A stretch of DNA of 64,000 bases from an uncultured Planctomycetota bacterium (GTDB taxonomy: Bacteria > Planctomycetota > Brocadiia > CAIUPP01), in assembly GCA_903901045.1 (NCBI GenBank), contig CAIUPP010000063.1, positions 1 through 64,000 of the forward strand. Direction: 5' to 3'. The position numbers were made by a program, and so were the translations under genes. Below the pieces are notes generated by a model. The model was given only the letters and a program-made list of their open reading frames with translations. It was not told the origin of the DNA and ran no database searches. Positions 12,952 to 58,232 of the stretch are shown piece by piece (position 1 is the stretch's first letter; the number at the start of each line of letters is the position of its first letter).

Positions 12952-13971
12952 ATGCGACCAGCCCACGCAACCCTTGAGAAAATCGCGGAGATATCCGGGC
13001 TTTCCCGCTCCACCGTGTCGCGCGCGCTGGCACGGCATCCTGATGTCAGTGAGGAGACAAGGGAGATAATCAAGGAAGTCGCCAAGTCCATCGGCTACCA
13101 GCCCGATTGGGCTGCCCAGTCACTCGCCAGGGGGCGATCCAACCTTGTGGCGATGGTTCTCCCCGGCACAGGCGAAATGTGGACGAGCGAACTTGCCGTC
13201 ACGGCCGCGAAAGTCATTTATGCCGATCACTATCTGCCGGTCTCCTTCCCCACCAACGGGCATGTGGAGTGGGAGACCTCTCTGCTGGAAGTGGTGAAGT
13301 CCCAGCGCCCGGCGGGAGTCCTCTGGCTTCCCTGCCTGCAATCCCAGGTCCCGGAGACCGTCAACGCGTTCGCCTCCCGCAAGATTCCTCTCATTGTCGT
13401 GGACCGGCATGACGCGGGCTGTCCGGCCACCTTCGTTTATACGGACGACCGGAACGGCATCGGTTCAGCCGTCAGGCACGTGGTCGAGCAAGGGCACCGG
13501 CGGATCGCACTGATCGTAGGGCCGATGAGCGGGACCATGCGCTTGCGAAAGGAAAGTTTCCTGGAGGCCATTGCGAACGCCCATATTGCCCCGCAGGATA
13601 CAACGATCGTCGAAGCGCCGCTGAAGTCTTCCGAACCGTGCTACCAGCGCTGTTACGATGTCGCACGCGAGATGCTGGGCAGGAAAGACCGCCCCACCGC
13701 GATTCTGACCTGTATGGACGAGCAGGCATGGGGGTGCCTGGAAGCCGCGCGCGACATGGGCATTGCGGTTCCGCAGGAACTGCGGATCATCGGCTACGGC
13801 AATTACATCCCTGCCCATTTCACCCGGTGCCGCCTCAGCACGGTCGTTCAGGACCGCGAAAAGATTGTTGTCGAGGCGATCAACGCGCTGCTGGGTTACA
13901 TGCGGGACGATTACGAGCCGAAATACCGGTCCATTATTGTGCCGACAAGCTTGTTGATCCGGGATACATGA
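12952..13971 (+). CDS. LacI-family transcriptional regulator
   Basis: This 339-residue regulator has a textbook LacI helix-turn-helix at the N-terminus (ATLEKIAEISGLSRSTVSRA), a hinge with SIGYQPDWAAQSLARGRSN, and a periplasmic-binding-protein-like sensor domain with VVDRHDAGCPATFVYTDD, RIALIVGPMSGTMR and PTAILTCMDEQAWGCLEAA. It probably senses a sugar released from the target glycan. A consensus promoter and a perfect operator palindrome lie just upstream, so it should repress itself and the divergent UroD/esterase operon. The pilin-like gene and hydrolases that follow in the same direction are the other likely targets. Confidence 0.92.
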   Translation: MRPAHATLEKIAEISGLSRSTVSRALARHPDVSEETREIIKEVAKSIGYQPDWAAQSLARGRSNLVAMVLPGTGEMWTSELAVTAAKVIYADHYLPVSFPTNGHVEWETSLLEVVKSQRPAGVLWLPCLQSQVPETVNAFASRKIPLIVVDRHDAGCPATFVYTDDRNGIGSAVRHVVEQGHRRIALIVGPMSGTMRLRKESFLEAIANAHIAPQDTTIVEAPLKSSEPCYQRCYDVAREMLGRKDRPTAILTCMDEQAWGCLEAARDMGIAVPQELRIIGYGNYIPAHFTRCRLSTVVQDREKIVVEAINALLGYMRDDYEPKYRSIIVPTSLLIRDT

Positions 13972-14127
13972 GACGATTCCACACAGGCGTGGCTGCCCCG
14001 AGCGCGACAGCCGCCGGCAACTCGTGAAAGGAGGGTAATGACGACTTCCCGGGATCGCATATCCGTCGCATGACTGCAGAATTGTGAGGAGAGGAGTTGT
14101 CACGGCCACTATTTGGAGGGCAGAGAG

Positions 14128-15516
14128 ATGCGTACGATGCGAAACGCGCTGACAGGCGTATTTGCCCCGTTCTTCACGCTGATTGAGCTGCTAGTCGTCA
14201 TCGCTATCATAGCCATTCTGGCCGGAATGCTGCTGCCGGCGCTGGCGGCGGCGAGAGAGAAGGCGCGGCGCACCGCGTGTCTCAACAACCTGAGCCAGTT
14301 CAGCCGGGCGTTGGAGAGTTACTGCAGCGACTACGGCGGGTACTTCCCGAACTGGGCGGCGTGGGGCAAGCGCGTGGGATATCATGCGCGCGCCAACGGT
14401 GCGCAGGAAGACTTGGGCATTGTGAAGGATGCTCGTACCGGCCAGGAAGTGGACACTTTCACAGGGGAGGGGCTCGCCTCCCCGGACTACAGCAAGTACT
14501 ATAACCCCGTGATCAACTTCCGCACCATCTTTGCCGGGTACAACCCCGCCGTGGGGCTGAATGCGAACCCGAATCCCGGCACGACTCCCACCATGAATGC
14601 CGTGGGCCTGGGTTACCTGGCCTCCTGCGGCTACCTCGGCGGTATGGGCAGCTACTTCTGCCCGAGCGCATCAGGCATGCCGACGGACGCCCTCATGTTC
14701 GACGCAACCCATTCGGCCGTGGCAGCCAATTCCCTTGCTGACGTGAAGCGCGCCGGCGGCATGGATCCGGACAAGATCATCCGCGGCAATTACGGCTGGC
14801 TCGGCAACTGGTGCACCGAAAGCGGGGACGTCCTTTCCAAGGTCGTCATCTCGTCATATAACTACAGGCTGTTGCCCACCTACTTGTTCCCGGATGATTC
14901 TCTCGGGGGAGACTGCGATGCCGCCAACGCTAATAATGATGCCGCCCTCTGGAACTTGACCTACGCGGCGCTGCTCGTGCGGCCGCGGAACATCGAGCTG
15001 GCCGGCGCGCCGGTATTCAAGACCCAGAAGCAGTTGGGTGCCCGCGCCGTGGTCTCGGACACTTGGAGCAAGAACCTCGCGCTGGGCTCCTCCATGACGG
15101 GCGCGCTGCCGGAACAAGCCGGACTTGGCTTTTACGGCCATCGCGACGGATACAACGTTCTGTACGGCGACTGGAGCGCCAAATGGTATGGCGATCCCCA
15201 GGCCCGAATCATGTGGTGGCGGCCCATCGGCATCGGCAACAGTTACTCCACCGTTGCTGGCTTGTGGTATGACAACTGCCGTTACGGAATGACCGCTAAC
15301 TTCGTGTCGGACTACTGGCTGCCCTTGCAGGCTGCCGGGCAGGCATGGGGGACACTCCCTGCCAGCGCGGGTGGCTCGGGGAGCAACTATCAGGCGCCGC
15401 TGGCGCGCGCAGGTGCGACGCCGGTTGGCGTCCCCCCGATTGGTGCGGTGGGCATTTGGCACCTCTTCGATACGGCCGCCACGATTGACGTGGGCACGGA
15501 GAAGGACTCCTACTAA
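14128..15516 (+). CDS. prepilin-like protein with H-X9-DW signature
   Basis: This protein of about 462 residues begins with a short basic leader and the type IV prepilin cleavage/methylation signature [16 protein letters not shown], followed by [21 protein letters not shown] prepilin peptidase would cleave before the phenylalanine, and the helix would anchor the protein in the inner membrane or assemble it. The long remainder is a large exported domain that ends with [12 protein letters not shown], a variant of the H-X9-DG motif in which the final glycine is tryptophan. I chose ATG 14128, seven nt after GGAGGG; an upstream TTG is less likely. It sits between the LacI gene and secreted LamG proteins, with a strong terminator-like hairpin after it. 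Its role is unknown; surface glycan capture or a secretion pseudopilin are options. Confidence 0.85.
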
Positions 15517-15536
15517 CATCCACGCGGAGAAAAGCA

Positions 15537-15569
15537 GGGGGGGCCGGAGGGGCGGCCCCCCCCTTTTTT
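15537..15569 (+). terminator. GC-rich hairpin with T-run, terminator or attenuator
   Basis: A 9-bp stem GGGGGGGCC/GGCCCCCCC is followed directly by six T residues. It matches an intrinsic terminator and lies 21 nt after the pilin-like gene and 19 nt before the next start codon. Since the next gene has no visible promoter of its own, partial read-through could set a high pilin-to-hydrolase expression ratio. Confidence 0.75.
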
Positions 15570-15587
15570 GTCTGGAGGGCTCTTTCC

Positions 15588-18500
15588 ATGTCGCGACTGA
15601 TTCTGGCGGCACTGTTCGCCGCTCTTGCTCTCAACGCGCGAGCGTTGGCCGGGGACGTGATCTTCTATGCGCCGTTTGAGAACTCCCTCGATGCCGCCGT
15701 CGCAGCCGGGTCAACGAAAGCGACCTACAACGGCAAGCCAACGTTTGTGAAGGGAGCCAAAGGCCAGGGCGTGGAGTTGACCCACGAGAGAATCAGCTTC
15801 TCGACCAGGAACAATCTCGACGTGCAGCAAGGCACGGTGACGTTCTGGATTGAGCCAAAGACGGCTTGGAAGAGCGTCAAAACGCACAACTGGTTCTTCA
15901 CGGCCGGCGACTGGGTCAATACCGGCAACATATTGGTGTACTGGCTGATGGAGCCTGACAACAAGATGACGTTCCTCATGGGCAAGAGTTCCGCGAGCTA
16001 TAGCTCCATCACCAGCCCGGCGCGGGAGTGGCCGGCGGAGCAGTGGTACTTCATCGCGGCGACATGGGACAAAACGGGCGCAATCAAGTTGTATGTGGAC
16101 GGCAAGCCTGTCGCCGAGTCCCAGGTTGGCGCCGCAAACCGTCCGGTGGACGTCGGCGAAACCATGTCGGTCGGGACCGAAGTGGCCACGGCCATGGATG
16201 AGTTGACGATCTACGGCCGTCCTCTCACGGCCGAGGAGATACTGGCGAAATACTCGGAATTCCTGAAGGACCTGCCCAAGGGCGCTGCGGACGTGGAAAA
16301 GGAAACGCTGGTGGCCCACTACACGTTCGACGAGGGGCAGGGGACGGTCGCGAAAGACAGCAGCGCGTATGGGAACGACGGCCAGATCCATAACGCCGTG
16401 TACGTCCCGTCGCCCCGCGGCCATGCCCTGCAATTCAACGGCAAGGACAGCTACGTGGATTGCGGAAGCAACCCCATCCTGAACATCCGCGGCGACATGA
16501 CGTTCGAGGCATGGGTCAAAGTGGCCCTGGACACCCCGCCGGACAATTGGAATGAGAAGTTCCTGTTCGGGGACAACGCCGGCTTGACGGTCAGCCGCGA
16601 CTTTATCGTGACGACGAACAACATGCGCCTGATGCTCCAACACGGAAACGGCACTGCGAGCGAGGACTTTCTCTCCGAGGGAAAGGTGTTCGATGGGAGC
16701 TGGCAGCATGTCGCCGTCGTCTGCGAGTTCCCGACTTACTATATGTTCGTGAACGGCCGGCAGGTGGCGACCGGGGAGATGAATCTGCCGATCACGCCGA
16801 CGGCGATGACGCCGCACCGCATCGGAGGATGGTTCTGGGAGAATGGGTTCTTCAAGGGCGAAATGGACGAAATCAAGGTGTACAACCGGGCGCTCCCCGA
16901 GAAGGCCATCCGCGAACATGCCGGCCTGGCGGCGCAAGCCGCCGACGTGAGCATTCAGAAGGTCGTCTCGGCCGTCCATTATCCGCGTCAGGAAATGGTG
17001 ATCAAGGTCTTCTGCCAGCAGGTCCAGGCGGACCGCCAATCGGTGATCGTCAATCTCTTCAAGAACGGCGGCAAGACGGTCCTGAGCAAGGTGGAGCCGA
17101 TCAAGGAGACCCGTCCGGGATCTGGGCGCGCCCTGGTGGAAGTGGTGTTCGACACGAAAGGTCTCGATCCGGCCGGCTACATGGTGCAGGCGATGATCAA
17201 GGATGCGGAGGGGCGCATCGCAGCCGAAGCGCCTGCGCAATCGGTTCTGTATCCCGAGAAGCCGGAGTGGTTCGGCTCCCAGGTGGGGATCGGCGACAAG
17301 GTGTTGCCCCCTTACACGCCGATCCAGGTGGATCGAAAGGGAGATATCGCCTCAGTGCGGATGTGGGGAAGAAGCTATGACATCGCTCCGGGTCTCTTCC
17401 TCTCCGGCATTCGGAGCCAGGAGAAGGACCTGTTGACCGGTCCGATGCGGCTCATGGCCAAAGCGGATGGAAAAGCGCTGTCATTCTCCACGACCGCGCC
17501 ATCGGTGGATGCTGGACCGGCGAAAACGACGTTGACGCAGACCAGCACGGCGGACGCTGTGAAGGTCTCCATCAAGACCACCGTCGAGTATGACGGCTTC
17601 GTCCGCATGGACATGGCACTGAACGCCCTGCGGCCCATGACGATGGAGAGCCTGACGGTGGAGATTCCGCTGGACGCCCGCTCTGCGCGGTATCTTGTGC
17701 TCATGTCACACCTGGGACACTTGAGCGGCTCTACCCCCAACGGCCTCATGACGAAGAAACAGTACGATCTTTCGTTCCAGCCCACCATCTGGCTGGGGGA
17801 CGAGGAGAAGGGACTTTCCTGGTTTGCCGAATCGAGTGAGAACTGGTACCCCGCCGCGGCCGGCCAGGCCATTCAGATTCTTCGGGACGAAAAGGTGGTC
17901 ACGTTCCGCCTCAACCTGATCGGGCAAGCAGTGAAGATGGACCCGGCGAAGCCCCTGGCCTACACCTTCGGCCTGCAGGCGACGCCTCTGAAGCCGATTA
18001 AGGAGGATGCGTGGGACAACCGCATCTATGAACTGTGCCGCGGCCCCTATGGAAACGGCACGGACAACACGCTGTTCCTGCGGGTCACCGACCAGGTGCT
18101 GGACGACCTCGCGGCGAAAGGGATCAAGACGGTCCTCGCCTTTGAACAATGGACCAACCTTCATAATTACCCCAGGACCGAGTACGAAGCGGACCTCGAC
18201 AGCCTCGTGAAGCGCTGTCATCAGCGCGGGATGAAGGTCACCGTCTATTTCGGCTATCTGATCTCCGACATGATCCCCGAGTGGCCCTGGCTCGGCGACG
18301 ATTGTGTCGTCGGCCCCAGGGGCGGAATGACGGACCGGCTTCCGTTTCAGAACATTTACCGCGTCTGCCTGCACAGCGCCTATCAGGACCTCCTTGTGGA
18401 CGGCATCGCGCGCGTCATGGACCGGTTCGACATTGACGGGGTCTACCTGGACAGCACCACCATCCCGTACGACTGCATCAACCGGCTGCATGGCTGCGGC

Positions 18501-19253
18501 TATTATGATAAGGACGGCACGCTCAAGCCCACGAACCCCGTCTTCGAGATCCGGGACACCTTCAAACGCATCTACACGGTGGTCAAGCAGCGCAAGCCCG
18601 ATGGGATTGTGGAGGCGCACGTGTACGACTGCATGAACACCCCCGCGCTGGCCTTCTCCACGTGCTACCTCAACGGCGAACAACTCTACCCGGCCTATTG
18701 GAACGGGGATGAGAACACGCCGAAGGGACACCTCCCGGACGTCATCCCCCTGGACCGGTTCCGCGCGGAGATGATGGGATATAACTGGGGCGTTCCGGCG
18801 GAGTTCCTCTATCAAGTCGCCGCGCTCGGTGGCGGGCACCGCATTTCCAACGCCATCACGCTCCTTCATGGAGTGCGCTGCAACGTGTTCTTCCGCGGGG
18901 ATGCCCTCGACCTGGATGCCCAGATCGGTAAGTTGATGAACGACTTCGGGCGCCATGAGGCGGCATTCCTGCCCTACTGGAAGAACGCCGATGTCGTCAC
19001 CGTCCAGCCCGCCGAATGCTACGCCTCGCTTTATCGGCATCCGAAGAACGGCGTTCTGGTCATCCTCTCCAACCTCGGCAGGGGCGAGGCAAACGTCGTC
19101 GTGAAGCTCGACCTGGCCCGCCTCCAATTGGCCGGAGCGCCGGCGGCTACGGACGGGTTCACCGGCCAGCCCGTGGAAATGAAAGAGGGAAATTTCAGCG
19201 TGAAATTGTCCTCCATGGACTGGAAGACCATCTGGATCAAGCCGGCCAAATGA
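15588..19253 (+). CDS. secreted double-LamG, DUF6067-like putative glycosidase
   Basis: This 1221-residue protein has a signal peptide (to about residue 22, ending ARALAG). Two LamG/concanavalin-type sugar-binding domains follow (~25-215 and ~240-450; the second begins LVAHYTFDEGQGTV). A DUF6067-like part begins near residue 558 (SQVGIGDKVLPPYTPIQV). It contains a TIM-barrel-like region with GMKVTVYFGYLISDMIPEWP and RFDIDGVYLDSTTIPYDC, where Asp residues on strand ends look catalytic, and ends in a beta-domain. It probably cleaves or binds a complex glycan outside the cytoplasm. The next gene is a close paralogue. GGAGGG precedes the start. The bond cleaved is unknown. Confidence 0.7.
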   Translation: MSRLILAALFAALALNARALAGDVIFYAPFENSLDAAVAAGSTKATYNGKPTFVKGAKGQGVELTHERISFSTRNNLDVQQGTVTFWIEPKTAWKSVKTHNWFFTAGDWVNTGNILVYWLMEPDNKMTFLMGKSSASYSSITSPAREWPAEQWYFIAATWDKTGAIKLYVDGKPVAESQVGAANRPVDVGETMSVGTEVATAMDELTIYGRPLTAEEILAKYSEFLKDLPKGAADVEKETLVAHYTFDEGQGTVAKDSSAYGNDGQIHNAVYVPSPRGHALQFNGKDSYVDCGSNPILNIRGDMTFEAWVKVALDTPPDNWNEKFLFGDNAGLTVSRDFIVTTNNMRLMLQHGNGTASEDFLSEGKVFDGSWQHVAVVCEFPTYYMFVNGRQVATGEMNLPITPTAMTPHRIGGWFWENGFFKGEMDEIKVYNRALPEKAIREHAGLAAQAADVSIQKVVSAVHYPRQEMVIKVFCQQVQADRQSVIVNLFKNGGKTVLSKVEPIKETRPGSGRALVEVVFDTKGLDPAGYMVQAMIKDAEGRIAAEAPAQSVLYPEKPEWFGSQVGIGDKVLPPYTPIQVDRKGDIASVRMWGRSYDIAPGLFLSGIRSQEKDLLTGPMRLMAKADGKALSFSTTAPSVDAGPAKTTLTQTSTADAVKVSIKTTVEYDGFVRMDMALNALRPMTMESLTVEIPLDARSARYLVLMSHLGHLSGSTPNGLMTKKQYDLSFQPTIWLGDEEKGLSWFAESSENWYPAAAGQAIQILRDEKVVTFRLNLIGQAVKMDPAKPLAYTFGLQATPLKPIKEDAWDNRIYELCRGPYGNGTDNTLFLRVTDQVLDDLAAKGIKTVLAFEQWTNLHNYPRTEYEADLDSLVKRCHQRGMKVTVYFGYLISDMIPEWPWLGDDCVVGPRGGMTDRLPFQNIYRVCLHSAYQDLLVDGIARVMDRFDIDGVYLDSTTIPYDCINRLHGCGYYDKDGTLKPTNPVFEIRDTFKRIYTVVKQRKPDGIVEAHVYDCMNTPALAFSTCYLNGEQLYPAYWNGDENTPKGHLPDVIPLDRFRAEMMGYNWGVPAEFLYQVAALGGGHRISNAITLLHGVRCNVFFRGDALDLDAQIGKLMNDFGRHEAAFLPYWKNADVVTVQPAECYASLYRHPKNGVLVILSNLGRGEANVVVKLDLARLQLAGAPAATDGFTGQPVEMKEGNFSVKLSSMDWKTIWIKPAK

Positions 19254-25277: not shown

Positions 25278-26516
25278 ATGAATGCGCCAACGCCTCTTCC
25301 GCGCGTGGCGGAATACGAGAAACTGGCCTACGGAATGTTCATTCACTGGGGGCTCTATTCGCTGCTCGGCCAGGGGGAGTGGGTGCAGTTCATGCACAAG
25401 ATCCCCGAGTCCGAGTATGCGAAGATGAAGGAACGCTTCACCGCAGCGGCCTTTGACGGGCGGGCCATCGCTCGCACCGCCAAACGCGCCGGAATGCGCT
25501 ACATCATTCTCACCACGCGCCATCATGAGGGGTTCTCCCTCTACGACACGCGCGGCCTCAGCGACTTTGACGCCCCCCACAGCGCCGCCAAGCGGGACCT
25601 CGTGGCGGACTTCGTTGAAGGATGCAGGAAGGAGGGGATCGTCCCCTTCTTCTACCACACGACCCTCGATTGGCATCACCCCGCGTACAAGAGCGACTTC
25701 AACGCCTATCTGGATTATCTGCACAAGTCCGTTGAAGTTCTGTGCACCCAGTACGGCAAGATCGGCGGTCTCTGGTTCGACGGCAACTGGGACAAGCGTG
25801 ACGTCGACTGGAAGGAAGACCGCTTGTACTCCTTGATCAGGAAACACCAGCCCGAGGCGATCGTCATTAATAACACCGGGCTAACCGCTCTCGGGAAATT
25901 GGGTCATCCCGAGATCGACGCGGTCACGTTCGAGCAGGCGCGAGCCACGCCCATGAACCGTTCAGGCATGCAGAAGTACGTCGCCGCAGAAATGTCCCAG
26001 ACGCTGAACCTGCACTGGGGGATTGCCCGGAACGATTTCGGCTACCTCTCCGTCAAGGACGTCATTGAAGACCTGTGCGCCTGCCGCAAGGTGGGGGCCA
26101 ACTATGTTCTGAATGTCGGGCCCACGGGGGAAGGCGCCATTCCCGATTGTGAAGCGGCGTTGCTGCTTCGCGCGGGAGAATGGGTCAGGACGCACGAGAA
26201 GAGCATCTATGACGGGAAGCCCTGCCATGTGCGGGGAAATGGGGCGGACTTTGCGCTTGAGGACGGCGGCAGCGTCTTCCTGTTCGTCCACAACCTGCCC
26301 ATCAACCTGCCGATATGCGGGAACTCCGGTTCTCAGGGCGCGCCCCGGGCGTTCAGCGGACTCAAGACCGGCATCAAGTCCGTGCGCTGGCTGGACAACG
26401 GCGAGGAACTCGCATTCTCTCAGAACCTGGATTCCGGCGTCTTTTCGCTCAATGCCACGGGGTATCCCTATGGCACGAATCTGGTCGTCCGTGTGGCGGA
26501 ACTCCTGCACAAATAG
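25278..26516 (+). CDS. alpha-L-fucosidase, GH29
   Basis: This GH29-type enzyme of about 412 residues has no signal peptide. The family start LAYGMFIHWGLYSLLGQGEW is clear, followed by MRYIILTTRHHEGFSLYDT and the strand GGLWFDGNWD, whose Asp is the expected nucleophile, then NYVLNVGPTGEGAIPD. GH29 enzymes release alpha-L-fucose with retention. The short C-terminal beta-domain is present. I chose ATG 25278 because upstream sequence in this frame overlaps the preceding gene and a GGAAAGG site precedes it. Cytoplasmic action on imported fucosylated oligosaccharides is likely. A second, more divergent GH29 gene lies at 45871. Confidence 0.88.
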   Translation: MNAPTPLPRVAEYEKLAYGMFIHWGLYSLLGQGEWVQFMHKIPESEYAKMKERFTAAAFDGRAIARTAKRAGMRYIILTTRHHEGFSLYDTRGLSDFDAPHSAAKRDLVADFVEGCRKEGIVPFFYHTTLDWHHPAYKSDFNAYLDYLHKSVEVLCTQYGKIGGLWFDGNWDKRDVDWKEDRLYSLIRKHQPEAIVINNTGLTALGKLGHPEIDAVTFEQARATPMNRSGMQKYVAAEMSQTLNLHWGIARNDFGYLSVKDVIEDLCACRKVGANYVLNVGPTGEGAIPDCEAALLLRAGEWVRTHEKSIYDGKPCHVRGNGADFALEDGGSVFLFVHNLPINLPICGNSGSQGAPRAFSGLKTGIKSVRWLDNGEELAFSQNLDSGVFSLNATGYPYGTNLVVRVAELLHK

Positions 26517-29505: not shown

Positions 29506-29533
29506 TTGACATGCTTCGTACATCCGCTATAAT
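29506..29533 (+). promoter_or_regulatory. consensus sigma70 promoter of the GntR gene
   Basis: TTGACA (29506-29511) and TATAAT (29528-29533) are both perfect matches, separated by 16 nt. The promoter reads into the regulator at 29591 with a leader of about 50 nt. ATGACTAGCAT (29532-29542) at the start point has ATG/CAT arms and may be part of an operator. Confidence 0.75.
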
Positions 29534-29590: not shown

Positions 29591-30745
29591 ATGTCGCGAA
29601 AGATGAATGATGGTGCTCTCTCTGAACCGCCCAAGGTGCTGCGCGGCGCGAAATACCAGGCGGTCAGTGAGGAATTGCGTCGCAGGATCAAAAGCGGCAA
29701 ATACGGTGTGGGGCAGAGGGTCCCATCAATAAGGGAGTTGAGCCAGGAGTTCCAAGTGAGTTCCGTTACAGTCACCCGCAGCATCCAGGAACTCGTGACG
29801 GAGGAACTCGTCACCTGTGGGGCTGGTTCTCGGGGTACTGTGGTTCTGCGGCAGGATAAGTTGTCGTCGGAGGTGGCGCAACGCACCACCTTGGCCTGTC
29901 TCTTCCGCCCCCATCGTCCCCGAAACGAAGTTGACAACTTTGGTCTCGACGTCCTTCAGGGGATTCGCCAGCAAATATCCGCCCACGATTACCGCTTTGT
30001 CTACCATTGTTTCGATGAGATTGATTACCAGCGAAAGATGCTTGTCACCGCCTTCTCCCCGTGGATTGCGGGGATGGTGCTCGATGTCTATACCCCCACA
30101 GATTTCCTGCATCGATTGGCGGAGAAGAAAATTCCCATGGTGTTGTTCGGTCGCGTGGAGGTCATGGATGGGCTGTCCTGCGTTGCTCCGGACTATGAGC
30201 GGTGCGGACGGGAGAGCTTCCGGATTCTCGCCGAGAAAGGATATGAACGCTTCGGATTCTACGGTCCGCCTCTCCCCGAGGAAGCAGGTGCCGCGCATAT
30301 TTATCCCCTGGACAGTTTTCACCGCGGTTTTAAGTCCGCGGCGGATGCTGCCGGCGTCCCTGCGGATCGGTTGGTGTGTTTCCTTGAGAATAATGTTACG
30401 GAAGGCAAGGTTCTGCTGGACCCGGAAGATTTTGGATTGCCCCGGGCCAAAGATTCTTCTTGGCGCCGACTGGGAGTCTTCTGCTCGACCGACACGCGTG
30501 GCCGGCGTTTCATGGATGCCGTGGCGAAGACCGACCTCCGTGTGGGGCAGGACGTGGGCCTTATCGGCTACGGGAACCTGGAATGCAATCTCCGGGGCCG
30601 CCCTCCATTTGACACCTGGCATTCGGATCGCCTGGGCGTGGGTATCGAAATAGTCAATGAACTGATGGCCCGGATCGAAAACCCGTTACGTCCTGCGGCA
30701 ATCATCAAAATGTCCCCGCAGTACGTTGACCGCGGGAGTGTCTGA
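29591..30745 (+). CDS. GntR/LacI hybrid transcriptional regulator
   Basis: This 384-residue regulator has a GntR winged helix at ~20-90 (YQAVSEELRRRIKSGKYGVG, then VPSIRELSQEFQVSSVTVTR). A LacI-like sensor domain follows, with WIAGMVLDVYTPTDFLHRLA, MVLFGRVEVMDGLSCVAPDY and DVGLIGYGNLECN. It probably senses a sugar and controls the long plus-strand run that follows, headed by a beta-helix protein and a pilin-like protein. Its own promoter is near-perfect. The ligand is unknown. The same architecture recurs at 258 and 57132, each time heading a glycan-related run. Confidence 0.92.
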   Translation: MSRKMNDGALSEPPKVLRGAKYQAVSEELRRRIKSGKYGVGQRVPSIRELSQEFQVSSVTVTRSIQELVTEELVTCGAGSRGTVVLRQDKLSSEVAQRTTLACLFRPHRPRNEVDNFGLDVLQGIRQQISAHDYRFVYHCFDEIDYQRKMLVTAFSPWIAGMVLDVYTPTDFLHRLAEKKIPMVLFGRVEVMDGLSCVAPDYERCGRESFRILAEKGYERFGFYGPPLPEEAGAAHIYPLDSFHRGFKSAADAAGVPADRLVCFLENNVTEGKVLLDPEDFGLPRAKDSSWRRLGVFCSTDTRGRRFMDAVAKTDLRVGQDVGLIGYGNLECNLRGRPPFDTWHSDRLGVGIEIVNELMARIENPLRPAAIIKMSPQYVDRGSV

Positions 30746-31051: not shown

Positions 31052-32359
31052 ATGAAACATGTGGGAATCGTGGCGTGGGGTGCAATGATCATCTGCCTCT
31101 GCGCCTGCAGCGTCAAAGCCGCCTGCACGTACGATGCGCAGAAGAACGCGATCTCCGTTGTGGACTACCCGGAGAGTGTCCCCTGCACCCTGAATGGCTT
31201 GTTGACGGCGGATAAGATGAATGGATGGGGCAAACTCAGCTATGACCAGGCGGCGGACACTTACACCGTCGCCTGCGACCTCATCGTGGGGGCCAATAAC
31301 GGCACGCACACGTATCTTCAGGTCGGAAGCAAGGAACACCCCAATGAAGTGCTTGTTCTTCGCGGCAGCCTTGTCATTCCGCCCTATTGGGTCAAGGACG
31401 TGAATACCCAGCCGCAGCACATGGCCCCGAAATGCGTCAATCGCGTGACGCTCGGTCTGGCGAGCGATCCGAGCATCAAGGCGAGCTTGAAATTCGACTG
31501 CCGGAAATCCGGCGAGTTCGGACTGAGCGTCGGCAAAGACCTTTGCCTCGGCGGGCAGTTGCACGTCTTCAACAGCACCATTACCTCCACGGCTCAGAAG
31601 CCGGGGCTCGGCTGGGCCGGGCCGCCTCCGCTGCCGCACCCGTTCATGGGCGGGGAGAGCTTCGTTTTTGACCACGCCACGATTGCATGGTGCGAAGGGG
31701 CATTTGGCTATCACATGAACGCGCGGGCGGCCCAAGTGAAGGACACGACCTTTGAATATGGCGAGTCGGCCAACTATGGCGGAAATCACCTCTGGAGAGG
31801 ATGCACATTCCGTCACATGAAGGAGGCCATTTTCGACTCGGGCGGTCTCGACATGACCCTCATCAATGGCGTTTTCGAGGACAACGTGCGCAACTGGGCG
31901 CTGCCCTACACGGACAAGGGATTGACGCTCATTGATTGCACGATCAAGCCGCCCACGGCGGGCAACCGTATGGCCTGCTGGAAAAACGAGGGGAAGACTC
32001 GCTACCCGAACGTCTGGATCAAGCATCACGTCGTTGTCGAGGCGGCGGATGCCGCCGGTAAGCCCGTCCCCGGCGCGCAGGTGGAAGTCGCCTGTGAGCA
32101 AAAGGCGGAGAACACGGTGGGCAATGCCAAGGCTCCCACGGGTGCGGATGGGAAGACGCCCGGCAAAGAGGATGAGGCCAAGGCGATTCTCCTGACGGAA
32201 TCGCAGGAAAAGGCTACGGACGTTGAGAACAAGACGGCCGTCACGGAATATACGTACGAAATCAAGGCATCTGCGCCGGAGGTCGGCACGGTTTCGGTCA
32301 AGGGATTCAAACCCACGGAGAATTGGCAGACGGTCAAGGTCGTTTTGGCAAAACAGTAG
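31052..32359 (+). CDS. secreted right-handed beta-helix-like protein
   Basis: This 435-residue protein has a signal peptide (hydrophobic [18 protein letters not shown]). The mature part shows short repeated beta-strands with polar turns ([32 protein letters not shown]), as in parallel beta-helix proteins, though no catalytic signature of pectate lyases is clear. From about residue 330 a new domain begins ([20 protein letters not shown]) that resembles carboxypeptidase-regulatory/Ig-like folds. It could bind or cleave an acidic glycan outside the cell. It is followed after only 11 nt by the pilin-like gene, so the two should be produced together. Confidence 0.6.
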
Positions 32360-32370
32360 GAGGGAGTGCC

Positions 32371-33768
32371 ATGCGAATGTTGCGCAAGTGGGCGTCGGCC
32401 TTTACGCTGATCGAACTCTTGGTGGTCATAGCCATTATAGCCATACTGGCCGGAATGCTCCTGCCGGCGCTGGCGGCGGCGCGGGAGAAAGCGCGCCGGA
32501 TCTCATGCATCAACAATCTCAACCAGTTCGGCAAAGGGCTGGAAAGCTATACCAGCGACTACGGCGGCTACCTGCCGAGCTGGATCGGCTGGGGCAACTC
32601 GGATTACCGGAGCTACTGCGCCGGCAGCTCCTCGGCCGGCGGCGCCTGCTTGAGCGGGAACCATGCCTCCATGGGCACGCGATATAACGAAACCGCGAGT
32701 ACCATGAGGCGCTACGCCTACACCGCCATCTCCGCAAAGGGCAAAACCTACATCGATCCGACCTTTGTAGCTCAATGGCGATGCATCGCTCACGGCAGTC
32801 AGCAAGTCAACTCGAGCGGCGCTGATATCAGCGGGTTCGCCCCTTTGGGGAGTTCGAATACCACGGGCAACCTGATCCATGCGCCCAACGGTCTCGGCAT
32901 GCTGCTGGCCTGCAATTATGTCGGCAACGCCAGATCATTCTATTGCCCGAGTTCGGACGGGATGATCTCGCCCTACTATAGGGGGCCGACTGTCAACAAG
33001 GCGCCTTCCTCAATTCGTGACTGGCAGAATGCCGGAGGGTATGACGCGAACACGATGTTGTATGGAAGATGGAGCGGGATTGGTGCCAACACCAGCACCA
33101 TCTACTCGCATTATGCCTATCGTTGTGTGCCGCTGGCAGTTTATGCCGGATGGCATACGGACACCGACGGCTCCCCCGACAGCCGCTACATCACCGGCGT
33201 CAAGCCGCGCATCGGCGCGCGCATCGGGCAGCCCCTCTTCCGAACGATGAAGGATATCGGGAACCGCTCCATTGTGACCGACGCCTGGGACAAGGGCTGG
33301 CAATATGACGCGCTGGGAAGGGACCTCGAAACCGACATTCTGCACACGGCGGGTGGCTCAGCCGCCATTGCCCTCAGCCAGACCGCGGCGGGAATGGGAA
33401 TTGCAGCCCACCGCGACGGCTACAATGTTCTCTACGGCGATTGGAGCGCCAAGTGGTGTGGCGACCCTCAACAGGGCCTGATCTGGCACGCGCAAGGAAT
33501 GGGATCCTGGGGCAGCGGCGGCCCGGCCCCGACGAACATCTATTCATCCTCCAGATCAAACTATTTCTACTACGGAATGCTTGCCATCAATGGCGACATT
33601 GCCGCCACCGACGTCGCGAGTTATCAGGTCAATGACCCGGGCGGCATTGGCGGCCTCTTCGGCACCACGGCCTCGTCCCGCACGAAATGCTTCCCGGTCT
33701 CGGCGCTGTCCATCTGGCATGGCTTCGACACCTTGAACGGGGCGGATGTCGGCGTGGACGGCCTTTAA
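32371..33768 (+). CDS. prepilin-like protein with H-X9-DW signature
   Basis: This protein of about 465 residues starts with [19 protein letters not shown], the prepilin cleavage/methylation signature, and [20 protein letters not shown]. The late [19 protein letters not shown] block matches the H-X9-DG family, with tryptophan after the aspartate. The large domain between them differs from the other two copies, so it may adapt to a different glycan or partner. I chose ATG 32371, directly after AGGAGGGAG; the longer frame upstream overlaps the previous gene. It lies between a beta-helix protein and a CBM9-like protein. Its role is unknown. Confidence 0.85.
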
Positions 33769-39165: not shown

Positions 39166-39206
39166 TTCTCTTCGCGCGGACAGTCTCCATCAGCGATAGG
39201 GCGGCC

Positions 39207-39965: not shown

Positions 39966-40019
39966 GCATCCCGGCCTGACGTGTAATGGCGTCCGTCAAT
40001 CCAGAAAGAGAGAGGATGC

Positions 40020-41684: not shown

Positions 41685-41700
41685 ACCAAGGAGAACCCGG

Positions 41701-51023: not shown

Positions 51024-52433
51024 TTATGGCACGTCCCCAGTCAGCATCGTGCTTCCCAGAACGGCCTTGGTTCCCTTCCCGTAGAGCAGGAGCTTGAAGC
51101 CTCGGAGCTCGTCCTTGGCGCGTTTGAGAGCAATCGCTTCCGTTTCGCGCCCAACGACGAAGAACTTTACGTCGTCGGCGCTACGGGCCACGAGGCGGTA
51201 GGTCTGCCACTCCTGGGTGTTGATCTTGATCACGGCGGCGGGATTGACACCGTCGGCCACTCCGTCAGCTTGCCACTGCACCTGCCACGCGCTGGGCTTG
51301 CAGAGATAGAGCAAGCCAATGGCGCCTTTGGGAGCGAAGCTGCATTTCATTCGGAACTCCATCACCATCGGGAGTTCGGACGTGGCGCCATAGGGGCCCA
51401 TGACCATGCCGAAGGCGTTGTCCGTCTCGCTTATGAGGACCAGTCCCTCATCGGTCATCTCCGCGCCCGCGACATAGACGTTCCGGTACGCTTCCCACGC
51501 TGCGGACTTTTTTGCCGCGCCCTCGGCCGCGCCATAGGTCTCCTTGATGCGAATCCCCGGCCGCGCCAGCGGGTTGCGGGTGCCGAGCTTCGCTGTCAAT
51601 TCTTGTCCGCTCGCCGGCGCCTGTGCGTCGTCATACCAAACCGCGCCGGTGATCCCACCTTCGGGTGTGTTGCCGCTGCCGTAGAACTCGATGAAATTCG
51701 ACTTGTCGGGCTTCTCGTTGGCCAGGCAAGCCACTTGCCGTTTTCCGGCGAGCGTGCTGTCGTGGATAACAAAGAAATCCCGCTGTTGGCTGTCCATGGC
51801 GGAGATGAGGATAGCGTCGGTCTCACCTTTCAACGCGCAATGTTCAACGGTCATGCTGCACGAGGATTCCTGTCCTTTCCCGTTGTGCATGTAAAGGGGC
51901 TGTTTGGCTTCGAGGAGCGAGTCCTTAATGACAATATGCTGTCCCGCCCACAAGCCGATGCCGAAAGCCGTGTTGTAGTCATTGGCCGGGGGCGTGCGGC
52001 GAAGGATGCAGTTGTCGACCGTGAGTACGTAGGGTCCGCCGCCGTCGCTGTGGATGCAGTACTTGACGTCGCCGCCAAGGAGAGTCAGGTTCTTGATTGT
52101 GCTGGTCGTCGTCGCCCAGATGACATGTGTGCGCGTGACTTCTTCAGCGGGCTTGCGCGAATAGCTCAGGACGCACTTGTCACGATCTTCTCCGACGAGG
52201 TTTACCCAGTTCCTCGTCGTCACCATTTCGTTATACGACCCGGGCTTGATCAGAAGGGTGACCGGATTTTCCTTCGTGGCGTCCTTGACTGAGTCGAGCG
52301 CTTCAGTGACCGTCTTGAAGGCGCCCGTGCCGTCCTGCGCTACGATGACTGTTCGTTCCGCCGCCAAACTGCTCAGAGCCGTCAGAAGAGTGGCGATTGC
52401 GGCCAGCAATATTCCATGCGCGGCGCGGGGCAT
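51024..52433 (-). CDS. secreted pectinesterase (CE8) with extra C-terminal domain
   Basis: This 469-residue protein has a signal peptide (to about residue 24, ending SSLAA) and a right-handed beta-helix of pectinesterase type: TVIVAQDGTGAFKTVTEALD at the start, NPVTLLIKPGSYNEMV, and GETDAILISAM, which corresponds to the catalytic VDFIF segment. The usual QDTLY is QPLYMH here, so one catalytic Asp appears changed and activity is uncertain. From about residue 300 a second domain follows (IRIKETYGAAEGAAKKSAAW to the end) that also exists alone as the adjacent upstream gene. AGGAG precedes the ATG. It is the last gene of the minus operon and would remove methyl esters from galacturonan. Confidence 0.8.
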   Translation of the reverse strand: MPRAAHGILLAAIATLLTALSSLAAERTVIVAQDGTGAFKTVTEALDSVKDATKENPVTLLIKPGSYNEMVTTRNWVNLVGEDRDKCVLSYSRKPAEEVTRTHVIWATTTSTIKNLTLLGGDVKYCIHSDGGGPYVLTVDNCILRRTPPANDYNTAFGIGLWAGQHIVIKDSLLEAKQPLYMHNGKGQESSCSMTVEHCALKGETDAILISAMDSQQRDFFVIHDSTLAGKRQVACLANEKPDKSNFIEFYGSGNTPEGGITGAVWYDDAQAPASGQELTAKLGTRNPLARPGIRIKETYGAAEGAAKKSAAWEAYRNVYVAGAEMTDEGLVLISETDNAFGMVMGPYGATSELPMVMEFRMKCSFAPKGAIGLLYLCKPSAWQVQWQADGVADGVNPAAVIKINTQEWQTYRLVARSADDVKFFVVGRETEAIALKRAKDELRGFKLLLYGKGTKAVLGSTMLTGDVP

Positions 52434-52492
52434 CCTTCTCTCCTTAACTTGATTGTTTTGTCCAGTTCAGCGCGGATTTCCGCGTCCTGTGT

Positions 52493-53104: not shown

Positions 53105-53220
53105 GACGCGTCTCCTTCTAACCTGGACAGTGGAAGCCCTTCCGATACATCCCTGCCTTCCCGTAAGAGGTGCGGAGTAGAGACCTCCGTCCCCGCGGGG
53201 GCGTTCGCTCCGAAAGCTGC

Positions 53221-55587
53221 TTAGCGCTCGTTCAGTACAAGGGAGTGTTTTCCCGGAGGCAGCCGACGCCCGTCGCGGAGCACCCCCGTGGTTTGCGCCG
53301 GAACGGTGATTTCGACGTTCAGCGATTCCGCGTCGCGCCGCGACCATTGGACTGCGATCGGACCCTGCGGGGTTGGCGCCTGGCCACTGCACCGCTTGAG
53401 ACCCAGCGCCTGAGGTTCGAATGAGAACTCGGCGAAACCGGGGCGGAGCGGACGGATGCCGAGCAGCACGGTCTGCATGAAATACAGGGGCGCACAGGAG
53501 AATCCGTGGCAGAGGCTTCCGGCGCCGCCGAATCCGTCCCGGCCGCCGCGTACTTCCCAGACGGTGAGCGAGTTCTCGCGCACCATCTGTCCCCACAAGT
53601 CGCGAATGCACACCAGGGCCTCCTTTGCCTTCCCGCCGCGCGCCAGGGCGTTCAGCACGAAGTACTGATAGTAGTACTCCGCCTTCACCAGGGACGGATC
53701 GAGCAGCGCGTCGAGCGAGGCAGCTCGGTGAGGTTCATCGAGGAGATCAAAGTGCAGTCCGACGGCATGGGGGTGCTGGCTGAAACTGCGCGCGCCTAGC
53801 GGCGGCTTCGTGCAGTCGTAGAACTTCCCCTGGTCGGCAAGCCAGAACTTGCGGGCGATGGCGCTGGAAAGGTCGCCCGCCCTGCGCGCCAGCGCCGCGG
53901 CGCGCTCCGCGCTTCCGGCCGATTGGTGCATCCACGCCGCGCGCTTGCAGGCGGCGGCAATGAGCATGTTCAAAACGGAGGCGGTTCCGCCCAGAGCGGC
54001 CGTGTCGGCGTTATAGCCCCAGTCGATGAAGTTGGTGTACTCCTTGTGATTCGGGATGAGTCCCTCGGCGTCGCGCCATGCCTCGTACGTGTCGAGACCG
54101 AGGTCCACGGCGGGGAGCAACTCCTCCACCAGCGCGCGATCTCCGGTATAGAGGTAGTAATCGCTCAGCGCGATCGTCCAGAGCGCGGAAATGCTGGTGT
54201 ACACGACGTGCGGATTGTTGTGATCCGAGGGGTAGACCGCCGGCATCATCCCGTCCCGCACCTGTCCGTCCGCGCCGAGCCGGAGCGAGCGCGTTGCCAG
54301 CGCCCGGTCCGAAGTCAGCGACAGGTAGAACGGCGTCTCAGCCACGATGTCGCAGAGCCAGAACGCCTGTTCCCGCCAGGGGCAGTCGATGAATGTATCG
54401 GTGGCGCAGGCGGTCAGGGTGGTCGCGCACATTTGCCAGAGTTGGTTCAGGAAGGGGTCGTCGCACTCGAACGCGGCCTGAACCGGCGTCGGATAGACGC
54501 GGTGGACTGCCTTCAGCGAGTGGATCGTGACGGGTTCCTGGAAGTTCCTCAGCACCAGTTGCAGCAGGCGGAAGCCCCTGTCCTGGAGGCGGTGCTCGAT
54601 GCGTTGGCGTCCCGCGCGCAGAATGTACCGGTCCGCAAATCGATAGGAGTACCGCCGGGTGTTCACGCGACCGTCCTGCAGCGACTCGGAATAACCGATA
54701 TCCAGAATGGTCCCCGCGGGAGCTTCCAAGTCGATCAGGACGCTGCCGATCAACTCGCGCTCGAAATCGACGATGCAGTATCCTCCGCGACCGGTCCTGG
54801 ACGGGATCACTTTCAGCGATCCCTCCTTGGACTGAAAACTCGGCAGGCCGGCTTTGAAGTGCAACTCCGACTGCATGAGGTCCGCAAAGTTCGTGTCCTT
54901 CTCAACGTCCCCCTCCGCCCAGGGCACGCCGCCCGCGGCGATCATGCGCTGGAATGAGTGCTCCCCGGAGGTCAGGGCAGGAATGTCTCTCGGCACAAGG
55001 GCGCGCCCTCCGAGATCATTGGCCCCGCCCAGTTCTTCGGCCTCCGCCCATCCCTCGCCGGAATCGGTGAAGAGTTGCCAACCGACGATCTCCTTGCGCA
55101 TGTCGCGCAGTTCCGAGAACCCGGTCTGCTCCGTATAGAGCGGCGAGTCGGAGCGCCGCGACGGGTCGGGACGCACTTGCCACGACGCATCCGTTTGCGC
55201 GATGCCATCGAGCTGCACCCAGAGCGCGGGGGTCACCGGCGCGGCGAGGTACGTGGCGATGACGGAGCAATGCACCTCGGCGGCGAGGACATTCGAACCC
55301 GCGCGAAGCAGCTTCGCCACGTCGATGCAATCATAGAAATAGCGCTTGTGGCTGTGCTTGACGGGTCCCACGCCGACCAACTGGCCGTTCAGGTACAGCG
55401 TATAGCGCGAATCGGCGCAAGCCCTCAGAAGGGCCTCCGCGGGTATTCGCTCAAGAGCGAACTTCTTTCGCGCTAGAAAAGTGTAGTTCGGCTTCTTCTC
55501 TCCGCGCGGCGCAATCCAGCGCGCGCGCAGCGGCTGCGCGCTTTCGCCTTCCGGCCGCCACGATCTTTGTGAAGAATTGGAAGTCAT
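53221..55587 (-). CDS. alpha-L-rhamnosidase, GH78
   Basis: This protein of about 788 residues has the layered beta-domains and (alpha/alpha)6 barrel of GH78. The catalytic block DTFIDCPWREQAFWLCD (near 400) matches the family's D-x-P-x-R-x-E motif with the expected acidic residue. VYTSISALWTIALSDYYLYT and the tail GSLCHGFSCAPLYFMQTVLL follow, then a C-terminal beta-domain (PGKHSLVLNER). GH78 enzymes release L-rhamnose with inversion. No signal peptide is evident from ATG 55587, so it probably works inside. It is transcribed after the pilin-like gene and before the pectinesterase pair, so it belongs to one pectin-type operon. Confidence 0.88.
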   Translation of the reverse strand: MTSNSSQRSWRPEGESAQPLRARWIAPRGEKKPNYTFLARKKFALERIPAEALLRACADSRYTLYLNGQLVGVGPVKHSHKRYFYDCIDVAKLLRAGSNVLAAEVHCSVIATYLAAPVTPALWVQLDGIAQTDASWQVRPDPSRRSDSPLYTEQTGFSELRDMRKEIVGWQLFTDSGEGWAEAEELGGANDLGGRALVPRDIPALTSGEHSFQRMIAAGGVPWAEGDVEKDTNFADLMQSELHFKAGLPSFQSKEGSLKVIPSRTGRGGYCIVDFERELIGSVLIDLEAPAGTILDIGYSESLQDGRVNTRRYSYRFADRYILRAGRQRIEHRLQDRGFRLLQLVLRNFQEPVTIHSLKAVHRVYPTPVQAAFECDDPFLNQLWQMCATTLTACATDTFIDCPWREQAFWLCDIVAETPFYLSLTSDRALATRSLRLGADGQVRDGMMPAVYPSDHNNPHVVYTSISALWTIALSDYYLYTGDRALVEELLPAVDLGLDTYEAWRDAEGLIPNHKEYTNFIDWGYNADTAALGGTASVLNMLIAAACKRAAWMHQSAGSAERAAALARRAGDLSSAIARKFWLADQGKFYDCTKPPLGARSFSQHPHAVGLHFDLLDEPHRAASLDALLDPSLVKAEYYYQYFVLNALARGGKAKEALVCIRDLWGQMVRENSLTVWEVRGGRDGFGGAGSLCHGFSCAPLYFMQTVLLGIRPLRPGFAEFSFEPQALGLKRCSGQAPTPQGPIAVQWSRRDAESLNVEITVPAQTTGVLRDGRRLPPGKHSLVLNER

Positions 55588-55643
55588 GGTGCGCCTTGTA
55601 TCACAAATTGCGCCGATGCAAAATCTGAGAACCCTCAAAGTGA

Positions 55644-55674
55644 GACCGGCCCGCCGATCGGAGGCGGGCCGGTC
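55644..55674 (-). terminator. strong hairpin after the pilin-like gene
   Basis: GACCGGCCCGCC (55644-55655) and GGCGGGCCGGTC (55663-55674) pair perfectly over 12 bp with a 7-nt loop. It lies just past the 3' end of the leftward pilin-like gene. The sequence after it on the minus strand is only moderately T-rich, so it may stabilise the 3' end or attenuate rather than fully terminate. It parallels the hairpin after the pilin-like gene at 14128. Confidence 0.55.
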
Positions 55675-55708
55675 AAGAGCTTCACGCAATGCAACGTCTG
55701 GCGCGCGA

Positions 55709-57058
55709 CTACCACACTATGTTCTCTTGGCTTCCATAGCCCGGTCCAGCCGGCGGCGTGGCGGAAGAAGTGCCATAGCCGGCGGGCATCGTGTCTATGC
55801 CGGCCGCCAGATCGAACTGATGGGGTATGAGCATGCCCTGCGAGCAGCCGGCGTCCGTGACGGTATCATAAATGGCGTAGGCGACTCGCGTCGATCCGGC
55901 GTACCTGGGCCCATAGACGTCCGCGGGCGTCTCGTTCGGTTTTCGCTGCCACATGATCCGCTGTTGCGGGTCGCCGTACCACTTGGCGCTCCAGTCTCCG
56001 TAGAGCACGTTATAGCCGTCCCGGTGGCCGTAATAGCCGTCGCCGGGGATGGCCGTTCGCTGTGCGGTCGTCGTGCCCTGTCCGTAGTCAGAGGCGCCGA
56101 AGCGGTCGCTGGAGATCATGCGCCCGGCGAGGATCTTCTGAGTCTTGAACGGCGCGCAGTTGGCTTTGGTCATGACGCTGGGTTTGGTGTAGGGGACATA
56201 AAACGGTTGCGTCACCAACGCCATGATCGGCGCCGTGTTTTGCCTGCAGGTCACCGCCACCGGTTGGTTGCGGTACGCGTAGCTGCAGCCGATGGCCACG
56301 GCATCATGGCCGCACTTCAACTTGTCCGCCGTCGCGTCGCCGGGGTTCTCCCAGCCGTTCCAGTTGTAGTAAACAGTCCAAGCGGCCACAGATGGCGTGT
56401 TGCCTGTGCCGGGTGTGCCATAATTTCCCGCGATGAGCGCGAGTCCATCACGACCGCCCAGCGCCCGGAGAGCCTGAGTGGTGGTGTTGAGGATGCCGGC
56501 GCAGTAGTTCGTGGAGGGCCGGCTGTTGGCGAGACCGGCAGCCATGATTGTGGCATCAAGTTCCGGCGTCGTGGGACAGTACAGCCCGGCGATGTCTCCG
56601 AGATAGCCGGCGGTGGCGAGCATTCCCAGGCCGACAGGCGCGGTGTGCAGCGAGCCTGCTCCCCAGTTGCCAGCGGTGCTGGTTGCCTGGGCGGCAGCGA
56701 TGACACCGTACGCGCTAAACATATGCGAGCTGTTGGACCCGTAGGCATAGTAGGGCTCGGGCGTGTAGAGCGTGACGGTCTGCTGAGCTCCCTTGATGTT
56801 TGTGGTGTAGGTTGCGAACCCCGGCGCTGCGCCATCCGCCGGCCAGGTGGGGAAGTAGCTGGCGTAGTCGCTGCAATACGACTCAAGTGCCTTGGCCTGC
56901 TGGTTGAGATTGTTCAGGCAGGCGGTCCGCCGGGCCTTCTCGCGCGCCGCCGCCAAGGCGGGCAGGAGCATCCCGGCGAGGATGGCGATAATGGCTATGA
57001 CGACCAGAAGTTCGATCAACGTAAACGCGCTCCACAGTCGCTTAAACATCCTTTTCAT
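55709..57058 (-). CDS. prepilin-like protein with H-X9-DW signature
   Basis: This 449-residue protein starts [20 protein letters not shown] with the prepilin cleavage/methylation signature, then [20 protein letters not shown]. It ends with the [19 protein letters not shown] block seen in the copies at 14128 and 32371. The central domain is different again. AGGAGGAAGACCG precedes the ATG. It lies 73 nt after the GntR/LacI regulator and upstream of the GH78 gene on the same strand. As with the other copies, a surface or secretion role in glycan use is inference. Confidence 0.85.
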
Positions 57059-57131
57059 CGGTCTTCCTCCTGTCCAATGGAACTACGCCACACGGGACAC
57101 GCATGCGGACGGCTTGTCGGCAATTTTCCTC

Positions 57132-58232
57132 CTAACGAACCGAGACGGAAATGAGCGAGCCTCGCTCAACCCATGCACCGGGGATGGCGATGTCTCTCGC
57201 GGGCCGACGCTTATCGCGGCAGCGCTCAACGACTTCCTCCACGGCAGTCCTGCCGATACATGATGGCTCAAATCGGAAGGTCGTGAGCGGGGGAACAACC
57301 TGCTGCGCCAGAGGAAGATCCAGTGTCCCGACAATAGAGATGTGGTCGGGTATGCGCTGGCCACTTGCGGAGAGATTCATGCAAGTCATGTTCGCCAGAA
57401 GGTCGTCTGTGCAGTAAATGGCCGTCGGGACGGGGACGGAACACACGATCTGCTTGATGAATTCCTTGAGGCCATCGTCCGGGATCTCATCATAATACAT
57501 GCCTACGCGTTTGGCGGGGATGGCCAAATTCGCCTCATACATTGCGGCGAGAAAAGCATCCGCCGCCTGGTGGCTGTTCCAGGTATCGCGGCATATGCAA
57601 CTGACCACGCGGTGGCCGTGCGCGACGATCTGCCGCGCGGTCTCGCGCGCGGCCTGCGCATTGTCGCGATAAACCGAACTCACGCCGTCGACCGGGCACT
57701 TGCGATCGATCACCGCCACCGGTCGGCCGGTAGCCGCCATTTGCGCGACCACATCGTCGGGCACCCAATCGTCCACAACGAAGCCATGTGCGGAATGTTC
57801 CACGAACTGCCGTACGACATCCGCCGCTATCTCTCTCCCCTCAAACGAAGGAGTGAAGAGAACCGTCTTATGGCTGCCATCCGTCAGCGCCTTCTGGATG
57901 CCATGGAACATGCCCAGTCCGTAATTGTCCCCCTGCGTCCATGCGGGTACCGCTCGGAAGATGACGCCCAGTTCCATTGAAGCAGGCACCTGAAAGGGTC
58001 CCGATCCTACTACGGTCCCCACACGAGGGTGCCGATGCACCAAGCCTTCGACTTCAAGTGTGGAGAATGCCGCATGAATGGGACCATAGCTAATGCCCAA
58101 TTCCTGAGCCATGGTTCGGATCGATGGCAGTCTTTCGCCGGAATGAATTCTTCCCGACAGAATCAGTGCCCGGTAGTGCTCCGCTACCTGCGATGCTACA
58201 CTGCTAGCGCCGGTCTTTAGAACGAGAGGCAT
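57132..58232 (-). CDS. GntR/LacI hybrid transcriptional regulator
   Basis: This 366-residue regulator has a GntR winged helix (~15-80; RALILSGRIHSGERLPSIRT, AQELGISYGPIHAAFSTLEV) and a LacI-like sensor domain (HGFVVDDWVPDDVVAQMAA; PTAIYCTDDLLANMTCM). It heads the minus operon with the pilin-like gene, GH78, the jelly-roll-like protein and the pectinesterase. It diverges from a GH123-like protein across only 90 nt. It therefore probably controls both directions in response to a pectin-derived sugar. AGGAT lies just before the ATG. The ligand is unknown. Confidence 0.92.
   Translation of the reverse strand: MPLVLKTGASSVASQVAEHYRALILSGRIHSGERLPSIRTMAQELGISYGPIHAAFSTLEVEGLVHRHPRVGTVVGSGPFQVPASMELGVIFRAVPAWTQGDNYGLGMFHGIQKALTDGSHKTVLFTPSFEGREIAADVVRQFVEHSAHGFVVDDWVPDDVVAQMAATGRPVAVIDRKCPVDGVSSVYRDNAQAARETARQIVAHGHRVVSCICRDTWNSHQAADAFLAAMYEANLAIPAKRVGMYYDEIPDDGLKEFIKQIVCSVPVPTAIYCTDDLLANMTCMNLSASGQRIPDHISIVGTLDLPLAQQVVPPLTTFRFEPSCIGRTAVEEVVERCRDKRRPARDIAIPGAWVERGSLISVSVR

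Follow-up and report, generated by a model that had tools for sequence, protein, structure and literature searches.

Some bacteria of the Planctomycetes-Verrucomicrobia-Chlamydiae (PVC) superphylum break down highly complex glycans with no SusC/SusD, and their genomes contain scores of prepilin-type genes that are unexplained. The question raised by the stretch analysed here, positions 1 to 64,000 of contig CAIUPP010000063.1 from an uncultured Planctomycetota bacterium (hereafter the window), is what a large prepilin-like protein does between a LacI- or GntR-type regulator and a series of glycan-active enzymes, an arrangement that it holds three times. As a first-pass annotation of this DNA had proposed, regulator, pilin and glycan enzymes form a modular, sugar-regulated unit. 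In two lineages each genome has tens of such units, and their description as modular glycan operons is well supported. That each unit is a self-regulated glycan operon, with the pilin made in excess and its head holding the polysaccharide of that locus, is in our view evenly balanced.

The recurrence was counted by family searches and in the stretches around the matches, pairing being scored by a strict next-gene rule. The window genome (4.77 Mb in 154 contigs, 94% complete) has 87 matches to N_methyl, comprising 59 large pilins (frames of at least 380 amino acids) and 28 small ones, while the regulators over the cut-off number 17 LacI, 41 GntR and 9 AraC. A pilin adjoins 35 of the 58 LacI/GntR regulators (25 codirectional, 10 divergent), compared with approximately 1.4% expected if placement were random (binomial P ~1e-50), and all paired pilins are large (35/59 versus 0/28 small). 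AraC was considered as an alternative partner and rejected, with one of nine paired. It has also been found that 23 of 39 regulators are paired in a genome of the same family (G001), and at least 74 of 150 scored pilins (out of 308 candidates) in Victivallis vadensis, so that binomial P ranges from ~1e-33 to ~1e-56 across the three genomes, with spacing and order fixed. An absence of such enrichment beside regulators or carbohydrate-active enzymes had been named in the first-pass annotation as grounds for abandoning the proposal; the enrichment is present in these counts, and glycan domains follow downstream. The 5.2-Mb genome of V. vadensis contains 133 GntR and 72 LacI matches, and about half of its scored pilins follow one. 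Codirectional runs in the window genome are longer after regulator-paired pilins (median 4 genes, the maximum counted) than after unpaired ones (median 1). Several small-pilin clusters adjoin T2SSE ATPase genes (contigs C26, C100, C130 and C142), so that small pilins look like machine parts and the large ones like orphan, operon-borne pilins.

The pairing is restricted in its distribution. Among loci drawn from a genome collection, and with clades assigned by record title, a LacI/GntR regulator lies upstream of 13 of 35 Lentisphaeria pilins, 0 of 37 Verrucomicrobiae pilins and 0 of the only 3 Planctomycetota pilins that could be tested, and the 25 commonest families among Verrucomicrobiae pilin neighbours include neither such regulators nor glycoside hydrolases. 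The further proposal that the pairing would explain the pilin copy number across these phyla therefore fails for Verrucomicrobiae, and this limitation to certain clades is a caution against regarding every pilin expansion in PVC bacteria as the same phenomenon. No description of regulator-pilin-enzyme units was found in open-access papers, subscription papers and preprints not being covered.

In the window, the three regulator-pilin pairs and their domains were confirmed at the positions first reported, and glycan-active genes do follow each pilin. The units are laid out as follows.

12869..12897, + strand: near-consensus sigma-70 promoter of unit 1, TTGACA-17-TAGAAT (11/12)
12952..13971, + strand: LacI-family regulator of unit 1 (LacI helix-turn-helix, HTH, and Peripla_BP_3)
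14128..15516, + strand: large prepilin-like protein 1, 462 amino acids, with H-X9-D motif
15525..15574, + strand: intercistronic stem-loop 3' of pilin 1, core 15537-15562 followed by CTTTTTTG, terminator-like
15588..19253, + strand: Laminin_G_3 and GH123_N-like protein of unit 1, 1221 amino acids
19285..22293, + strand: Laminin_G_3 and GH123_N-like protein of unit 1, 1002 amino acids
22301..25207, + strand: 968-amino-acid protein of unit 1, xylose-isomerase-like barrel at the C-terminus
25278..26516, + strand: alpha-L-fucosidase family protein of unit 1
29506..29533, + strand: consensus promoter of unit 2, TTGACA-16-TATAAT (12/12)
29591..30745, + strand: chimera of GntR HTH and LacI-type sensor (Peripla_BP_3), unit 2
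31052..32359, + strand: 435-amino-acid protein with no Pfam match, one extra gene between regulator and pilin of unit 2
32371..33768, + strand: large prepilin-like protein 2
33903..37178, + strand: CBM9-domain protein, 1091 amino acids, first gene 3' of pilin 2
51024..52433, - strand: pectinesterase-like protein of unit 3
53221..55587, - strand: alpha-L-rhamnosidase-like protein, first gene 3' of pilin 3
55644..55674, - strand: intercistronic stem-loop 3' of pilin 3, 12-bp GC stem GACCGGCCCGCC...GGCGGGCCGGTC, z -3.9
55709..57058, - strand: large prepilin-like protein 3
57132..58232, - strand: chimera of GntR HTH and LacI-type sensor, unit 3
58273..58301, - strand: promoter-like site of unit 3, TTGACA-17-TAGCAT (10/12)

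Unit 1 thus has a plain LacI regulator, and units 2 and 3 have GntR-HTH/LacI-sensor chimeras. A fourth chimera of the window (258-1406, - strand) is an exception, having no adjoining pilin; it lies near a cluster at 1996-8936 with DUF4962, URO-D-like and GH106-like genes. Genes of the uroporphyrinogen decarboxylase family (URO-D-like) adjoin glycan loci at 4922-6010 and 11764-12819, the family being counted once 3' of pilins and twice among control genes.

The operon layout is reflected in the promoters, scanned as TTGACA-N16-18-TATAAT with at least 10 of 12 positions within 170 nt upstream. In codirectional units of the window genome and G001 together, such a site precedes 75% of regulators, 0% of pilins and 1% of first enzymes, against a background of 8% for control genes and 2% for shuffles, and the corresponding rates in V. 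vadensis are 87%, 0% and 4%, with 7% for controls. Divergent units have good promoters on both sides, before 50% of pilins and 67% of regulators. With one strong promoter before the repressor, pilin and enzymes most likely share its transcript. A scan for palindromic operators found no excess over control promoters. This promoter pattern, together with the stem-loop that follows the pilin gene, is a feature that the first-pass annotation did not contain.

A GC-rich stem, mostly of 12-21 bp, lies directly 3' of the pilin stop codon (median 27 nt) in 30 of 44 units of the window genome. Other codirectional gaps have one in 10 of 109 cases (P 5e-13), and it occurs in none of the 20 regulator-pilin gaps and in no shuffle. 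The signal in G001 is weaker (10/21 at a lower cut-off versus 1/13), and among those compared by eye the stems differ in sequence and keep their position. In the window, the stem-loop of pilin 1 folds at -37 kcal/mol (z -1.6), that of pilin 3 has no T-run, and folding after pilin 2 is not significant (z +1.35). Ordinary intrinsic termination was rejected as a general account, as a T-run follows in only 3 of 35 cases, pilin 1's among them. The stable stem-loop 3' of the abundantly expressed gene that marks operons with selective RNA processing and stabilization or an internal terminator thus has a counterpart here, 3' of the pilin gene. It has been demonstrated in cellulosome and ATP-binding cassette (ABC) importer operons that stem-loops 3' of the gene for the abundant subunit raise its transcript over the downstream genes (PMC4423207, PMC9045158). 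In Ruminiclostridium cellulolyticum, the stem-loops of the ABC importers (PMC9045158) and of cip-cel (PMC4423207) are, as here, GC-rich, poor in U and directly 3' of the capture or scaffold gene, although here the gene encodes a pilin and an effect of the element on transcripts is putative. By this analogy, the pilin is probably made in excess over the enzymes in the window's family.

The genes behind the pilins often point to glycans. The three window units encode GH123-like proteins with laminin-G lectin domains, a fucosidase, a CBM9 protein, an alpha-L-rhamnosidase and a pectinesterase-like protein, and among 47 first genes 3' of pilins in the window genome there are Laminin_G_3 (12), CBM9 (6), GH123 (4), DUF4838 (4), beta-helix (3) and the rhamnogalacturonan-lyase-like PcRGLX (2). 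The 25 commonest families of 101 control genes from ten stretches include none of these, their sole glycan-active entry being GH42M (2). The 36 first downstream genes of V. vadensis include beta-helix (5), rhamnogalacturonase-like (3), GH5 (3), GH2 (3), GH39 (3), CBM4_9 (3) and GH10 (2). In the window genome and G001, first downstream genes are longer than controls (median 714 versus 305 amino acids), and N-termini that resemble secretion signals by a home-made hydrophobicity rule are found in 53% versus 19%. In unit 2, two creatininase-family proteins, a ThuA-like and an octopine-dehydrogenase-like protein (38407-42885) are odd neighbours in a glycan operon. Large and mid-sized proteins with no Pfam match at 42956-45880 and 27329-28477 in the glycan region are candidate undescribed enzymes.

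The window pilins (449-465 amino acids) match N_methyl (PF07963) and TIGR02532, that is, the class III N-terminal cleavage/methylation motif with its hydrophobic helix, and on these profiles they belong to the type IV prepilin/pseudopilin superfamily. As first described, their N-terminus is almost invariant and all three have a late H-X9-D hairpin. N-terminal gene conversion was rejected (codon identity 0.47 versus 0.43 expected), which indicates that the near-identity mostly reflects constraint at the protein level. The DUF1559/SBP_bac_10 match is partial, covering profile positions 2 to ~37-49 of 268 only and hence not the whole domain, and H-X9-DG-CTERM (TIGR04294) has no match in the window pilins even at E 10, though it matches the planctomycete pilin L020 (25.7 bits); the window pilins continue for ~100 residues C-terminal of the H-X9-D motif. 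GspG is the best-scoring profile for the N-termini, at ~35 bits over the N-terminus only and below its equivalog cut-off of 88.85, and the solved relatives by sequence are PilA and geopilin, over residues 8-72 (the N-terminal helix) only. The middle regions do differ, as had been noticed, with 23-27% identity, but judged by their alignments they are one diverged homologous family and not unrelated domains, given that, with the N-terminus and the hairpin excluded, E<1e-5 is reached by 4503 of the 4950 pilin pairs. Likewise, a single pilin per locus is usual without being the rule that "exactly one" had implied: two or three occur in tandem at three loci of the window genome and at several sister-genome loci. 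Tandem neighbours resemble each other much more closely, at a median of 197 bits, than other pairs do (69 bits), and probably arose by local duplication. At the sister-genome loci L173, L178, L187 and L189, the two or three tandem pilins are large and stand behind one regulator.

Assembled from these parts, a unit might work as follows, with sugar sensing, prepilin processing and the use of a shared machine suggested by the protein families. A strong sigma-70 promoter would drive the gene for a LacI or AraR-like (GntR/LacI) repressor, then the large pilin and then secreted, glycan-active enzymes bearing lectin or carbohydrate-binding module domains, and a sugar signal would release the repressor and thereby allow transcription of the operon. 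In the window's family, the stem-loop would give more pilin than enzyme, through partial termination or protection of the pilin mRNA. A prepilin peptidase, of which the window genome has two, would cleave the pilin, whose conserved N-terminal helix would insert into a shared type II secretion or type IV pilus machine, and the variable head of 400 residues would be displayed in or through the envelope, holding the polysaccharide of that locus for the enzymes produced with it. A SusC/SusD-like role for the pilin, as first proposed, is plausible by analogy. A full pilin-based counterpart in the window's family and Lentisphaeria, with dozens of repressor-run operons that each supply a dedicated capture head and a shared secretion/pilus machine re-equipped for each substrate, is a more tentative proposal, which we put somewhat short of an even chance.

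Several findings weigh against this view of the pilin. Its sequences match no carbohydrate-binding family, the lectin-like domains being on the enzymes instead, and the AlphaFold models of pilins 1 and 3 (from alignments of 12 and 7 rows of window and related-locus sequences) reach a predicted local distance difference test (pLDDT) of 35 and 32, with no confidence beyond the N-terminal helix. No LacI/GntR regulator adjoins approximately 40% of the large pilins, and in V. vadensis the pilins measure only ~240 amino acids and the units have no stem-loop (gap median 20 nt). Pilin head and enzyme set appear to be only weakly co-inherited, and a match of head to substrate is correspondingly faintly suggested: downstream families are shared by 20% of the pairs whose heads are more than 150 bits alike and by ~5% of those below 100 bits, and best-head partners share them in 14 of 74 cases versus 4.9 expected, a value reached in at least 1 of 300 shuffles. 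Regulator similarity shows no correlation with pilin-head similarity.

Other explanations would accommodate some of these findings. The pilin could be a locus-specific pseudopilin or secretion adaptor that caps or joins a shared type II pseudopilus and aids hydrolase export while binding no glycan; the GspG-like N-termini, the ordinary pseudopilin size of the V. vadensis pilins, the often large, secretion-signal-bearing partner enzymes and the several T2SSE ATPases of the genome are all in keeping with this. Yet several machines have small-pilin clusters of their own, never paired with a regulator, and the stem-loop suggests an excess of pilin over enzyme beyond what a tip adaptor needs; as the weak tracking of enzyme set by pilin head also speaks against an adaptor, we consider it rather doubtful. 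Type IV pili act as adhesins, and the pilins may serve as adhesins for substrates in general, or as retractable pili drawing the cell towards a polymer particle, co-regulated with the enzymes and not matched to glycans. One homologous head family throughout and the loose correspondence of head similarity to enzyme content would fit such a role, which would however not need more than 50 diverged copies, many controlled by a sugar repressor of their own, nor does it sit well with the closest heads having downstream families in common about four times as often as typical pairs do; it is thus unlikely. That both gene classes are numerous might suggest a pairing by chance or as a by-product, but this is next to impossible and excluded by the counts, considering the P values and fixed spacing and order in three genomes, the internal controls (AraC and small pilins) and the operon promoter pattern.

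If polysaccharide capture by the pilin is correct, a dedicated capture pilin would account for much of the prepilin gene excess in two lineages, the rule promoter-repressor-pilin-enzymes could be used to find glycan loci and predict enzyme function there from sequence, and genes would be assigned to the pilus-capture idea drawn from the microscopy of Planctomycetes. In the latter, pilus-like fibres have been shown to bind dextran (Boedeker et al. 2017, PMC5394234), and a "fishing rod" hypothesis of planctomycete pilus uptake has been stated (PMC12078418). The proposal there, for a related group of the superphylum, is likewise that polysaccharide is captured by pilus-type fibres and taken up into the periplasm; in the available portions of these papers this is fibre microscopy with no genes named, whereas the present unit is a genetic one, and the three Planctomycetota loci mentioned above did not show its pairing. 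In the Verrucomicrobiota, the mucin system of Akkermansia likewise ties a type IV pilin-like protein, MUL2A (Amuc_1102) of locus MUL2, to glycan use (PMC13174399 citing Davey et al. 2023), but MUL2 consists of four genes with a PilM protein and without hydrolases, in contrast to dozens of units with their own repressor and enzymes.

SusD (PF07980) and the TonB-receptor Plug (PF07715) have no matches in the window genome, a Bacteroides control genome being positive for SusD, so that, within the limits of a 94%-complete assembly, the genome lacks the Bacteroidota route. From this absence, the planctomycete fibres, the fishing-rod idea and the Akkermansia protein, we infer that glycan capture is the likeliest role of the pilin, and the data suggest that made-to-order pilins help glycan capture in cells without the Bacteroidota import proteins. 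By their domains, units 2 and 3 carry AraR-like GntR/LacI chimeras and unit 1 does not; as in AraR-type repressors, a GntR HTH is joined to a LacI-type periplasmic-binding-protein sensor, but here each of the two is paired with a pilin and its release by sugar is putative. Polysaccharide utilization loci (PULs) with SusC/SusD in Bacteroidota share with these units a regulator, a dedicated surface component and secreted enzymes per locus, in tens of loci per genome, and the clustering of glycan-active enzymes with a dedicated regulator that characterizes PULs is found here as well. They differ in that the constant component here is a pilin in place of SusD and the TonB plug, and in that repressors take the place of hybrid two-component or extracytoplasmic function (ECF) regulators. 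In conclusion, the unit can be classed among carbohydrate utilisation loci, its constant non-enzymatic component being a pilin.

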